The notes under the pieces are model-generated. The model was not told the DNA's origin and searched no databases. It saw nothing but the letters and a program-made list of their open reading frames with translations. Below, one piece after another: positions 10,402 through 14,029 of a DNA stretch of 36,673 nucleotides (positions are counted from its first letter, which is position 1; each line of letters starts with the position of its first letter). The translations under genes were made by a program, and so were the position numbers. Origin of the DNA: Gammaproteobacteria bacterium (lineage in GTDB: Bacteria; Pseudomonadota; Gammaproteobacteria; Arenicellales; Spongiicolonaceae); contig JAPPPZ010000123.1 of assembly GCA_028817275.1 (NCBI GenBank), positions 1 through 36,673 of the forward strand, given 5' to 3'.

Positions 10402-10437
10402 AAAGCGCCCGTGTCAAGTTCCCAAGCCCGCGAAAAA

Positions 10438-12204
10438 ATGAACCGCCCCCCCAAACGCGAAAGCCGCGCCGCCACCGACATTATTGCCGCCGGGCAGGCC
10501 GGGACTTTGTCCGGGTTGTTTGCCGAGCGGGTGGCGCGGTCGCCGCACAAGGCCGCGTTCCATGAGTTTGACGCCGATGCCGGGCAGTGGAAAACTTTTT
10601 CGTGGAGCGATGTGGCGCATGAGGCGGCGCGCTGGCAGGCGGCGTTTCGGGCGATGGGACTGGCCGCCGGCGAGCGCGTTGCGCTGCTGCATGCGAACAG
10701 CCGCCACTGGGCGGCGGTGGACCAGGCGGCGCTGGGCCTGAACCTGGCGGTGGTGCCGCTGTATGTGGACGACCGCGCGAGCAACCTGGTTTACATTCTC
10801 CGCCACACCGAGGCGCGCGCGCTGGTGGTGCAGCGGCATGAGCAATGGCGGCACATCGCCGAGGAAAGCGACGACTCGCTGCCGTCCATCGCCCGGGTGT
10901 TTGTGGTGGACGGCGATGGCGGCGGTGACGGCCGCGTGCATTTTGCACAGCATCTGCCCGATGGCGCCGGCAATGCCACCGCCTACCGCGGCGACCCCCA
11001 CAGTCTGGCCAGCATTGTGTACACCTCCGGCACCACCGGCCGGCCCAAGGGCGTGATGCTGAGCCACGCCAACATCCTGTGGAATGTGCACGGCAGCATT
11101 CAGAAAATTAAAATCCGCACCGATGATTTGTTTCTTTCCTTCCTGCCGCTGTCGCACACGTTTGAGCGCAGCGTCGGCTACTACCTGCCGGTGATGGCCG
11201 GCGCCGAGGTGGCGTTCAACCGCTCCATCGACCAACTGGCCGACGACCTGCGCGAGATGCGCCCCACCGTTTTAATTGCGGTGCCGCGAATCTTTGAACG
11301 CGTGCAGCGCAAACTCGCCGCGCAACTGGACGCCGGGCCGCGCCTGCGCAAAATGTTTTTTCACCTTGCGGTGGCCGTCGGCTGGCGGAAATTTTTGCGC
11401 CGCCAGGGCCGCGGCTGGTGGACGCCGGATGCGCCGCTGTGGCCGCTCATCGGCAAACCGGTGGCGCGCAAAATCGCCGCGGCCCTCGGCGGCCGGCTGC
11501 GGCTCGCCGTTTGCGGCGGCGCGCCGCTGGCCTTTCATGTGTCGCGCACCTTTCTCGCCCTCGGCGTGGACATTTGCCAGGGCTACGGCCTCACCGAGTC
11601 GGCGCCGGTGCTCACCTCCAACACCCCGGCCGCCAACCGCCCGCGCAGCATCGGCAAGCCCCTGGGCAATGTGCAACTCCGAATCGGCGATGGCGAAGAA
11701 CTGCTGGCGCGCGGCCCCAACATCATGCGCGGCTACTGGCGCGACGAGGCCGCCACCCGCGCCGCCTTCACCGGCGGCGGCGGCGACCGCTGGCTGCGCA
11801 CCGGCGACTGCGCGCGCATGGACGCCGACGGCTTTGTCTACATCACCGGCCGGCGCAAGGAAATTCTGGTGCTGTCCACCGGCGAGAAAATTCCGCCGGC
11901 CGACATGGAGGCGGCAATCAGCGAAGACCCGTTGTTTGAGCAGGTGATGGTGATTGGCGAGGCCAAACCGTTCCTCGCCGCCCTGGCCGTGGTGAACGAG
12001 GAGACGCCGGCGGAGGTTTTGCTGGCGCGCATCAAAACCCGCACCCGCCGCTTCCCCGGCTACGCCCGCATCCGCAAGGTGAGCGCCACCACCGAACCGT
12101 GGACGGTGCAAAACGGCCTGCTGACCCCCACCCTCAAACTCAAGCGCGCCAGCATCCTGCAGCAGTTTGATGCGGAGGTGGAGGAAATGTACGCCGGGCA
12201 CTGA
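10438..12204 (+). CDS. Long-chain acyl-CoA synthetase (AMP-forming, FadD15-like)
   Basis: The product activates fatty acids by forming acyl-AMP and then acyl-CoA. The adenylate-forming core motif IVYTSGTTGRPKGVMLSH lies near residue 193, GYGLTES near 382, and GDCARMDADG followed by YITGRRKEILVLSTGEKI near 456. The last includes the conserved hinge and Lys region. The overall shape, with the EISxxP-like IPPADMEAAI tail, matches the FadD15/long-chain group rather than E. coli FadD. I chose the ATG at 10438 (588 aa); a GTG at 10411 would give 597 aa, and the 9 extra residues are not diagnostic. Together with fadE it suggests a fatty-acid uptake or oxidation locus. The intergenic space to the divergent radical SAM gene is only 56 nt. 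Confidence 0.9.
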   Translation: MNRPPKRESRAATDIIAAGQAGTLSGLFAERVARSPHKAAFHEFDADAGQWKTFSWSDVAHEAARWQAAFRAMGLAAGERVALLHANSRHWAAVDQAALGLNLAVVPLYVDDRASNLVYILRHTEARALVVQRHEQWRHIAEESDDSLPSIARVFVVDGDGGGDGRVHFAQHLPDGAGNATAYRGDPHSLASIVYTSGTTGRPKGVMLSHANILWNVHGSIQKIKIRTDDLFLSFLPLSHTFERSVGYYLPVMAGAEVAFNRSIDQLADDLREMRPTVLIAVPRIFERVQRKLAAQLDAGPRLRKMFFHLAVAVGWRKFLRRQGRGWWTPDAPLWPLIGKPVARKIAAALGGRLRLAVCGGAPLAFHVSRTFLALGVDICQGYGLTESAPVLTSNTPAANRPRSIGKPLGNVQLRIGDGEELLARGPNIMRGYWRDEAATRAAFTGGGGDRWLRTGDCARMDADGFVYITGRRKEILVLSTGEKIPPADMEAAISEDPLFEQVMVIGEAKPFLAALAVVNEETPAEVLLARIKTRTRRFPGYARIRKVSATTEPWTVQNGLLTPTLKLKRASILQQFDAEVEEMYAGH

Positions 12205-12226
12205 ACATGGCGGTGCAGGATGCAAA

Positions 12227-12331
12227 AACGGTGGTTTGGAGCGCGGGAACGGTGGTTGCAAGGGCCGGAATGGTGGTTGCACCCGCGGAAACGCTGGTTT
12301 GAGTGGCGAAAACGGTGACTGCACGGCGCAT
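12227..12331. repeat. Five-unit 21-bp imperfect tandem repeat
   Basis: The core AACGGTGGTT (with one to three changes per copy) begins at 12227, 12248, 12269, 12290 and 12311, exactly 21 bp apart. A TGCA often follows the core. The array lies between the acyl-CoA synthetase stop and the ABC ATPase start. Because 21 is a multiple of 3, the array is open in one plus frame as GN-G-type heptapeptides and in a minus frame as PPF heptapeptides. It is also two turns of DNA, so the units would face the same side of the helix. Confidence 0.8.
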
Positions 12332-12348
12332 GGCGGCGGCGGCGGGCG

Positions 12349-12354
12349 TATAAT
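12349..12354 (+). promoter_or_regulatory. -10 box TATAAT for the ABC exporter genes
   Basis: A consensus TATAAT at 12349-12354 is separated by 7 nt from the ATG at 12362, the same geometry as at 6077. The transcript would be leaderless. There is no Shine-Dalgarno sequence in the CGGCGGC spacer. The 21-bp repeats end about 20 bp upstream, where a -35 or an activator site would lie. Confidence 0.55.
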
Positions 12355-12361
12355 CGGCGGC

Positions 12362-13261
12362 ATGATTTCGGCAAGCGGGCTGCGCAAAAGTTACAACGGG
12401 CGGGAGGCGGTTTGCGGGGTGGATTTTTCGGTGGCGGCGGGGGCCTGCGCCGGGCTGCTGGGGCCGAACGGGGCCGGCAAAACCACCGTAATTCGCATGA
12501 TTTTGGGCCAGTCGCCGCTGTCCGGCGGCGAGTTGGCGGTGTTTGGCATGGCCATGCCGGCGGCGGCGGTGAAGGTGCGGGCGAGAACCGGGGTGGTGCC
12601 GCAACTGGACAACCTGGACCCGGACTTCACCGCCGCCGAGAATCTGGAAACCTACGCGCGCTATTTCGGCATCAAGGCCGCGGAATTCGCCGGGCGCAAG
12701 GAGGCGCTGCTGGATTTTGCCGCCCTCGGCGGCCGCGGCGATGCGCGCATTGAGACGCTGTCCGGCGGCATGCGGCGGCGCCTGTCCATCGCCCGGGCGC
12801 TGGTCAATGACCCGCAATTGATTGTGCTGGACGAGCCCACCACCGGGCTGGACCCGCAGGCGCGGCACCTGATTTGGGCGCGGCTGCGGCAGTTGCGGCA
12901 GCAGGGCAAAACCATGCTGCTGACCACCCACTACATGGAGGAGGCGGAGCGGCTGTGCGACGAGGTGTTCATCATGGACACCGGCCGCATCATTGCGCGC
13001 GGCGCGCCGAAGGAATTAATCCGCCGGACGGTGGAGCCGCATGTGTTTGAGGTGGAGGCAGCCGCGGGGGCGGCGGCCGCGGCGGCCGAAACGGCGGGGG
13101 CGCGGGTGGAAACGGTGGGCGATGTGGTGCTGGCGTATTCCGCGGCGCCGGAAACGGTGGCGGCGGCGTTGAAAACGGTGGCCGGGGCCGACGTACTGCA
13201 CCGGCCGGCGTCGCTGGAGGACGTTTTCCTGCGGCTGACCGGGCGCGGGCTGCGCGATTGA
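12362..13261 (+). CDS. ABC exporter ATP-binding protein, NodI/DrrA-like
   Basis: A 299-aa cytosolic ATPase subunit. Walker A GPNGAGKTT lies near residue 34, the signature LSGGMRRRLSIARAL near 133 and Walker B LIVLDEPTTGLDPQ near 154, followed by the H-loop TTHYMEE. VVPQLDNLDPDFTAAENL is characteristic of the NodI-like branch of ABC-2 exporters. The last 90 residues form the usual accessory domain, here rich in Ala. I set the start at the ATG 7 nt after TATAAT. The frame is open 65 codons further upstream through the 21-bp repeats, but that extension would overlap the previous gene and the promoter. It works with the permease 15 nt downstream. NodI-like pairs are common in non-nodulating bacteria, so the substrate is unknown. 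Confidence 0.93.
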   Translation: MISASGLRKSYNGREAVCGVDFSVAAGACAGLLGPNGAGKTTVIRMILGQSPLSGGELAVFGMAMPAAAVKVRARTGVVPQLDNLDPDFTAAENLETYARYFGIKAAEFAGRKEALLDFAALGGRGDARIETLSGGMRRRLSIARALVNDPQLIVLDEPTTGLDPQARHLIWARLRQLRQQGKTMLLTTHYMEEAERLCDEVFIMDTGRIIARGAPKELIRRTVEPHVFEVEAAAGAAAAAAETAGARVETVGDVVLAYSAAPETVAAALKTVAGADVLHRPASLEDVFLRLTGRGLRD

Positions 13262-13276: not shown

Positions 13277-14029
13277 ATGTTTGCGATGTTTGCAGTGTGG
13301 CGGCGCAACTTTCTGGTGTGGCGGCGGCTGCTGGGGCCGAGCCTGGTGCTGAATATCGGCGAGCCTTTTTTAATCCTGGTGGGGCTGGGTTTCGGCGTCG
13401 GTTATTTCATCGGCGAGATCGGCGGGATGCGCTACCTGGATTTCGTCGCCTCCGGCATCATCGCCTCCTCGGCCATGTTCACCGCCAGTTACGAGGCGCT
13501 GTGGTCGGTGTACACGCGCATGGTGCCGCAGCGCACGTACGAGGCGCTGCTGGCGACGCCGCTGGGGGTGGCGGACATCATGCTCGGCGAGGTTTTGTGG
13601 TGCGCCACCAAATGCACCTTCACCGGCGCCTGCATTCTGCTGGTGGTGGCGCTGTTCGGCAGCGTGCATGGGCCGGGGGCGCTGCTGGCGCTGCCGGTGG
13701 TTTTTGTCAGCGGCGTGTGCTTTGCCTCCATGGCCATGGTGGTGACGACGCGGGCGCGGAGTTACGACTTTTTTTCCTACTACCTGACGCTGTTCATCAC
13801 GCCCATGTTCGTGTTTTGCGGCGTGTTCTACCCGGTGGAGGTGCTGCCGCCGGCGGCCGAGGCGGTGGCGCAGTGGCTGCCGCTGACCCACGCCGTCGCG
13901 CTGCTGCGGCCGCTGGTGGTGGGGCAGCCGCTGGACCAGCCGCTGCTGCACTTTGCGGTGCTGCTGGCCTACACGGCAGCGTCGCTGTGGGTCGCGCTGA
14001 AGTTTGCGCGGCGGCGCCTGCTGGTGTGA
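13277..14029 (+). CDS. ABC-2 type permease, NodJ-like
   Basis: A 250-aa inner-membrane protein with about six hydrophobic segments. An N-terminal FLVWRRLLGPSLVLNIGEP precedes the first segment, and EALLATPL, a conserved cytoplasmic-loop motif of ABC-2/NodJ permeases, is in the first third. The last segment ends with a basic tail ARRRLLV. It follows the ATPase gene by 15 nt and overlaps or abuts sfsA at its stop (GTGTGA). Together the pair would form a two-plus-two exporter for a hydrophobic or glycan-type substrate, which cannot be specified. The start ATG at 13277 has an in-frame ATG alternative three codons later. Confidence 0.9.
   Translation: MFAMFAVWRRNFLVWRRLLGPSLVLNIGEPFLILVGLGFGVGYFIGEIGGMRYLDFVASGIIASSAMFTASYEALWSVYTRMVPQRTYEALLATPLGVADIMLGEVLWCATKCTFTGACILLVVALFGSVHGPGALLALPVVFVSGVCFASMAMVVTTRARSYDFFSYYLTLFITPMFVFCGVFYPVEVLPPAAEAVAQWLPLTHAVALLRPLVVGQPLDQPLLHFAVLLAYTAASLWVALKFARRRLLV

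Follow-up and report, generated by a model that had tools for sequence, protein, structure and literature searches.

A tandem array upstream of an ABC exporter probably belongs to a dispersed, minisatellite-like 21-bp repeat family in two genomes of one gammaproteobacterial genus

The window analysed here, the whole stretch of 36,673 nucleotides of contig JAPPPZ010000123.1 (assembly GCA_028817275.1), carries five tandem 21-bp units upstream of an ABC exporter. This array is probably a member of a degenerate, dispersed, minisatellite-like 21-bp family with unit turnover, present in two genomes of the genus, and it probably has no exporter-specific role. What appeared as a local oddity is part of a genome-wide repeat family in which the register is locked, the units are fluid and the position is fixed. 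The fixed sites, the insertions of whole units, the spacers common to different loci and the indifference to gene context all fit a minisatellite-like family.

The array occupies positions 12227–12331 on the forward strand, with unit starts at 12227, 12248, 12269, 12290 and 12311. Successive units matched the core AACGGTGGTT at 10, 10, 9, 9 and 8 out of 10 positions. Tandem Repeats Finder recognized the part at 12227–12302 (period 21, 3.6 copies, 72% matches, 0% indels, score 68). The five-unit tandem array of the original prediction was thus confirmed by unit starts, core matches and Tandem Repeats Finder, and its description as “exact” holds for the spacing, but not for the sequence, the units being imperfect. 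A degenerate extra unit, weak (core 6/10) and in register, may precede the array at 12206–12226 (forward strand).

The array takes up most of the space separating the exporter TATAAT from the gene upstream, an AMP-binding (acyl-CoA synthetase-like) enzyme (10411–12204, forward strand, PF00501), whose stop codon lies 22 bp before the array start. Downstream, 17 bp separate the array end from TATAAT, which is present directly upstream of the exporter as predicted (12349–12354, forward strand), 7 nt before the ATG of the ABC transporter ATPase gene (12362–13261, forward strand, PF00005). An ABC-2 type membrane protein gene, the probable partner in the exporter, follows (13277–14029, forward strand, PF01061). 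The stretch from TATAAT to the ATG (12349–12361) is letter-identical in the sister species, whose genome was the only other one of the genus analysed. A promoter and terminator scan of 12100–12450 gave no −35/−10 pair and no terminator. A structured RNA was considered and rejected: folds of four arrays, on both strands, were no better than shuffles (z −1.09 to 0.97), and 12000–12600 had no Rfam match at the gathering score.

Some other features of the locus were recorded. With a distance of only 7 nt from TATAAT to the ATG, the ABC ATPase transcript would be leaderless; of 359 predicted starts in this genome, three had TAYAAT 6 or 7 nt upstream, and of 330 in the sister species, two had it at 6 nt. 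In the ABC ATPase gene, close to its 3′ end, AAACGGYGG recurs in 21- and 42-bp steps (13089–13182); a Tandem Repeats Finder row (13142–13182) falls within this run, and positions of AAACGGTGG were mapped there. The run aligns to the sister species without length change, and may therefore be chance codon usage. The nearest named relative of the AMP-binding enzyme came from the metagenome-assembled gammaproteobacterium isolate PNGst_C_binSS3 (91% identity, best segment). This isolate name, together with passages of a sponge metagenome paper (PMC6742649) that do not mention this bin, suggests a sponge origin.

The core, which the original prediction proposed to look for elsewhere in the genome, was frequent. 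In the window's genome, a 2.02-Mb draft in 166 contigs, AACGGTGGTT had 49 matches, versus 3 for the reversed pattern, and in the sister genome 45 versus 2; no comparable excess was seen in 58 other genomes of the order. A two-unit pattern matched 71 times in this genome and 56 times in the sister, with 0 control matches in each, while the remaining 192 of the 194 genomes had 0–3 matches each. Genome-wide, the 71 matches against none for the reversed control exclude chance for this repeat. A three-unit purine/pyrimidine pattern gave 68 and 47 matches (controls 0), forming 43 and 27 clusters by our own count of the listed places. This last pattern also catches coding repeats rich in Val/Ala/Thr/Ile (e.g., L236), so that its matches inside genes are not all safe family members. 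Full-text searches of an open-licence library gave no account of this 21-bp repeat.

To describe the unit, we used 62 fetched stretches from this genome (0.42 Mb) and 38 from the sister (0.36 Mb), and a position matrix built from the 144 units that matched the core at 8 or more of its 10 positions; an earlier, iterated matrix had drifted into GC-rich codons and was not used. The consensus of the internal units was RRYGRYGRYTKSRRNKGYGRR, with 96% G at positions 4 and 7. Among units scoring >10 bits in the fetched stretches, 121 pairs were 21 bp apart, 70 were 42 bp, 42 were 63 bp, 17 were 84 bp and nine were 105 bp apart, and none were found at 19, 20, 22 or 23 bp. Only nine pairs below 170 bp were off register (two at 62 bp, and one each at 78, 83, 93, 99, 104, 123 and 157 bp), and the reversed control had just two pairs, at 132 and 147 bp. 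Single units >10 bits numbered 355, versus 104 in the reversed control, and lone matches are thus unsafe. The strict 21-bp spacing despite drifting sequence, originally noted for one array, is therefore true of the whole family, and its head-to-tail units of constant period are those of a minisatellite or VNTR-type repeat.

The identity of the spacers between the cores was 0.47 between neighbours, 0.52 two units apart and 0.57 four units apart (range within arrays 0.45–0.57), versus 0.44 between arrays, with a weak 42-bp alternation along the arrays. Identical 11-bp spacers occurred in different arrays 13 times in this genome, versus 2.7 expected, and eight times in the sister, versus 1.5 expected, exceeding all 500 shuffles in each genome. 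Exact matches between loci within a genome reached at most 38 bp (L016 and L019).

Of 181 array calls, 94 were single units and were left out of every array count, and 31 had two units, some of which may be chance. By our own codon-usage ORF caller, 61 of the 87 arrays of two or more units from the two genomes together were intergenic, while called genes made up 91% of the fetched sequence. The 53 arrays of this genome were 39 intergenic, 13 coding and one mixed, and the 34 of the sister were 22 intergenic, 10 coding and two mixed. Among gaps of at least 45 bp in this genome, those with an array made up 24 of the 76 between codirectional genes, 2 of the 10 convergent ones and 7 of the 31 divergent ones; the sister had 14 of 80, 3 of 14 and 5 of 32, respectively. 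Since the stretches were mostly picked for holding matches, these figures inform only on how the gap types compare with one another. Between codirectional genes, with orthologous loci kept in, 22 arrays ran opposite to the genes and 16 along them (p 0.42). TATAAT/ATTATA was not enriched near arrays: this genome had one in 5,896 bp there and 12 in 31,917 bp of intergenic DNA elsewhere, and the sister two in 4,071 bp and 21 in 28,981 bp. Gap types, orientation and TATAAT density thus gave no tie of the arrays to promoters or gene direction.

Two other aspects of placement stood out. Core loci were found within 150 bp of a contig end in 7 of 43 cases, versus 1.06 expected (p 8e-5), although two of the seven (C42 and C164) have common sequence and may be one locus; such an excess would follow from variation in array length among members of the population. 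With both genomes pooled and orthologous loci kept in, TGTAGCAC or its complement was ~8 times denser up to 60 bp from arrays (8 in 9,967 bp versus 6 in 60,898 bp). Within or beside arrays, TGTAGCAC, whose complement GTGCTACA resembles an extended −10, was seen at L003, L022, L029 and L032.

Inside genes, 17 of 22 arrays were read in antisense phase 0, four in sense phase 2 and one in sense phase 0, commonly as a heptapeptide such as S/P-x-x-A/Q-T-T-V. Two of the 22 (L184 at 10357 and L151 at 14422) resemble a signal peptide and may be chance, and L026 has an odd frame. As some of these arrays are mutually orthologous and two are chance-like, their independent number is below 22. The array at 12227–12331 lies between genes and not in frame inside one; the suggestion that it is the remnant of a coding heptapeptide repeat suits the in-gene arrays, but not the array for which it was made.

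Comparison of the 53 arrays of this genome with the sister placed 17 by both flanks, 19 by one flank and 17 by none. In all 17 two-flank pairs the sister had at least one unit above 8 bits at the same site, a figure biased upwards because the sister contigs were partly chosen by pattern matches. Of the 78 contigs, 38 came from matches to a noisy pattern (63 and 61 matches, controls 24 and 24), 39 from a regular series and one (C4) from the two-unit listing. The series contigs contributed three of the 17 pairs; array sequence was present in all three, in one case as a lone unit >8 bits. No empty site or transfer in progress was seen between this genome and the sister.

For divergence and insertions a second set of 17 pairs was used, in which L025, with poorly aligning flanks (0.200), replaced L022. 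Array divergence exceeded flank divergence in 14 of these 17 pairs (pooled flanks 0.083), and in six of the 17 arrays the sister copy carried an insertion of 21 or 42 bp. Copy number therefore differs between the relatives by whole units, the exceptions being two 1-bp indels and one change of 54+10 bp; raw flank-to-flank length differences in the first set of 17 pairs also include non-multiples of 21 (+9, −9, −18, +36, −1, +43 and +64). At the locus of the array at 12227–12331 the flanks correspond in the sister, but the spacers do not. Beside the array of L022 (1948–2052), a ~1.3-kb (1.28-kb) stretch is present here and absent from the sister; reading by eye suggested an HNH-like motif in it.

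Between the species, core positions 4–9 diverged by 0.098 and positions 10–17 by 0.220, versus 0.104 for other intergenic DNA. By our own estimate, the core may be somewhat constrained, provided that it too is affected by unit replacement. At positions 18–21 and 1–9, the ratio of transitions to transversions was 89:23, a stronger bias than the 589:338 of other intergenic DNA (p 0.0007); positions 10–17 had 57:50. The evidence for constraint on array spacing is mixed, as two indel counts disagree. Other intergenic DNA had 0.105 indels per substitution. Global alignment of the intergenic arrays gave 2–4 off-register indels in 944 bp versus 9.9 expected from other intergenic DNA (P 0.003–0.030), whereas BLAST alignment with a 5 bp margin gave 9–11 in 1,421 bp versus 15.0 (P 0.07–0.19). 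The second count, without significant depletion, weakens the case for constraint, and the originally proposed selection on spacing is thus backed by one alignment and not by the other.

In the minisatellite-like family, arrays would gain and lose units via slipped-strand events or unequal recombination, and ectopic exchange would copy units between arrays. Such exchange would keep the family consensus while the units at any one site change. As the unit equals seven codons, arrays inside genes would be tolerated in frame, mostly as a Ser/Pro-x-x-Ala/Gln-Thr-Thr-Val-like linker. As neither an empty site nor a transfer in progress was seen, this dispersal mechanism is inferred. Several results speak against the minisatellite-like reading: neighbouring units resemble each other little more than they resemble units from elsewhere (spacers 0.47 and 0.44), unlike after a recent expansion; some length changes are not whole units; the core may be somewhat constrained; and by one of the two counts off-register indels are rarer than pure neutrality predicts. 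Strict register combined with near-equal similarity within and between arrays is not predicted by turnover alone, which leaves room for a DNA-level constraint acting genome-wide.

Such a constraint would arise if the arrays were rows of sites for a putative genus-specific architectural, nucleoid-type DNA-binding protein, acting at many loci and in any gene direction, which we regard as unlikely. With a 21-bp step, all sites would face the same side of the helix, and the strict register is also seen in arrays outside genes, which are free of any reading frame (65 arrays lie at least partly outside called genes). The indel depletion by global alignment, the transition bias around the core and the intergenic position of 61 of 87 arrays also agree with it. 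However, depletion is not significant by the BLAST count, core divergence is close to that of other intergenic DNA, and the number of units changes. Moreover, selection against in-gene arrays would also enrich them between genes, and exchange of units whose columns vary in the same way would also produce the transition bias. A combination of both ideas, with chromosome-wide sites for a putative architectural protein whose helical register is kept while units are swapped by concerted exchange, and which serve as an in-frame linker inside genes, appears quite unlikely.

We consider it very unlikely that the family began as a coding heptapeptide repeat (antisense x-x-x-Thr-Thr-Val), of which the intergenic arrays would be copies or fossils. 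The single antisense frame of 17 of 22 in-gene arrays is consistent with such an origin, as are the G-rich positions 4 and 7, which are third codon positions in that frame, and the in-gene heptad arrays found by the looser purine/pyrimidine pattern. Outside genes, however, there was no clear frame signal: stops occurred in 9 of 65 arrays in the antisense frame concerned, in 10 and 15 of 65 in the other antisense frames, and in 9 of 65 in one sense frame; selection that removes arrays in the remaining frames could equally produce the in-gene bias. The reading with the lowest probability, and highly improbable, is regulation of the exporter by an activator or repressor that binds beside TATAAT at the row of sites suggested in the original prediction. 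The array does end 17 bp before a TATAAT that is unchanged in the sister, as is its spacing from the ATG, and both species have an array at this locus. Yet similar arrays occur at dozens of other loci, in gaps of all three gene orientations as well as within genes, TATAAT/ATTATA is not enriched near them, and no −35 was found.

Among known repeats, mycobacterial interspersed repetitive units (MIRU-VNTR) form dozens of mostly intergenic tandem arrays with whole-unit variation in copy number, and their units are longer and much alike within one locus. Cyanobacterial STRR sequences and small dispersed repeats are very short and degenerate, and lie in intergenic and some coding DNA. Rickettsia palindromic elements are a family found between genes and in frame within genes, as single palindromic insertions. 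Compared with these systems, the 21-bp family resembles MIRU-VNTR in its dispersed, mostly intergenic arrays with whole-unit changes, but has a 21-bp unit, and units within an array are nearly as unlike as those of different arrays. It is short, degenerate and dispersed like the cyanobacterial repeats, and differs in unit, lineage, strict 21-bp register and weak 42-bp alternation. With the Rickettsia elements it shares the occurrence both between genes and in frame, whereas here the repeats are tandem arrays, with no fold above chance in the four tested. The family could serve as a typing marker for this uncultured lineage, and it offers a way to ask if repeat rows can keep strict spacing in the absence of a function. 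A further caution is that such arrays near promoters need not be regulatory.

A plasmid search gave three weak partial matches, none reaching 80% of the query. In viral contigs, six stretches had an exact two-unit match, and the unit matrix found in each one to five units >8 bits, with at most two in register. Three of them (L230, L234 and L235) had a nearly identical unit pair. On these grounds, the viral matches were taken for chance and rejected as family members. At one contig end, L236 (1–391) had a 105-bp (5 × 21) tandem repeat with 3.7 copies and 98% matches. Several of its reading frames are open, including an antisense one that encodes a hydrophobic sequence. A stretch similar to this repeat was found at another contig end (L237, 19–127).
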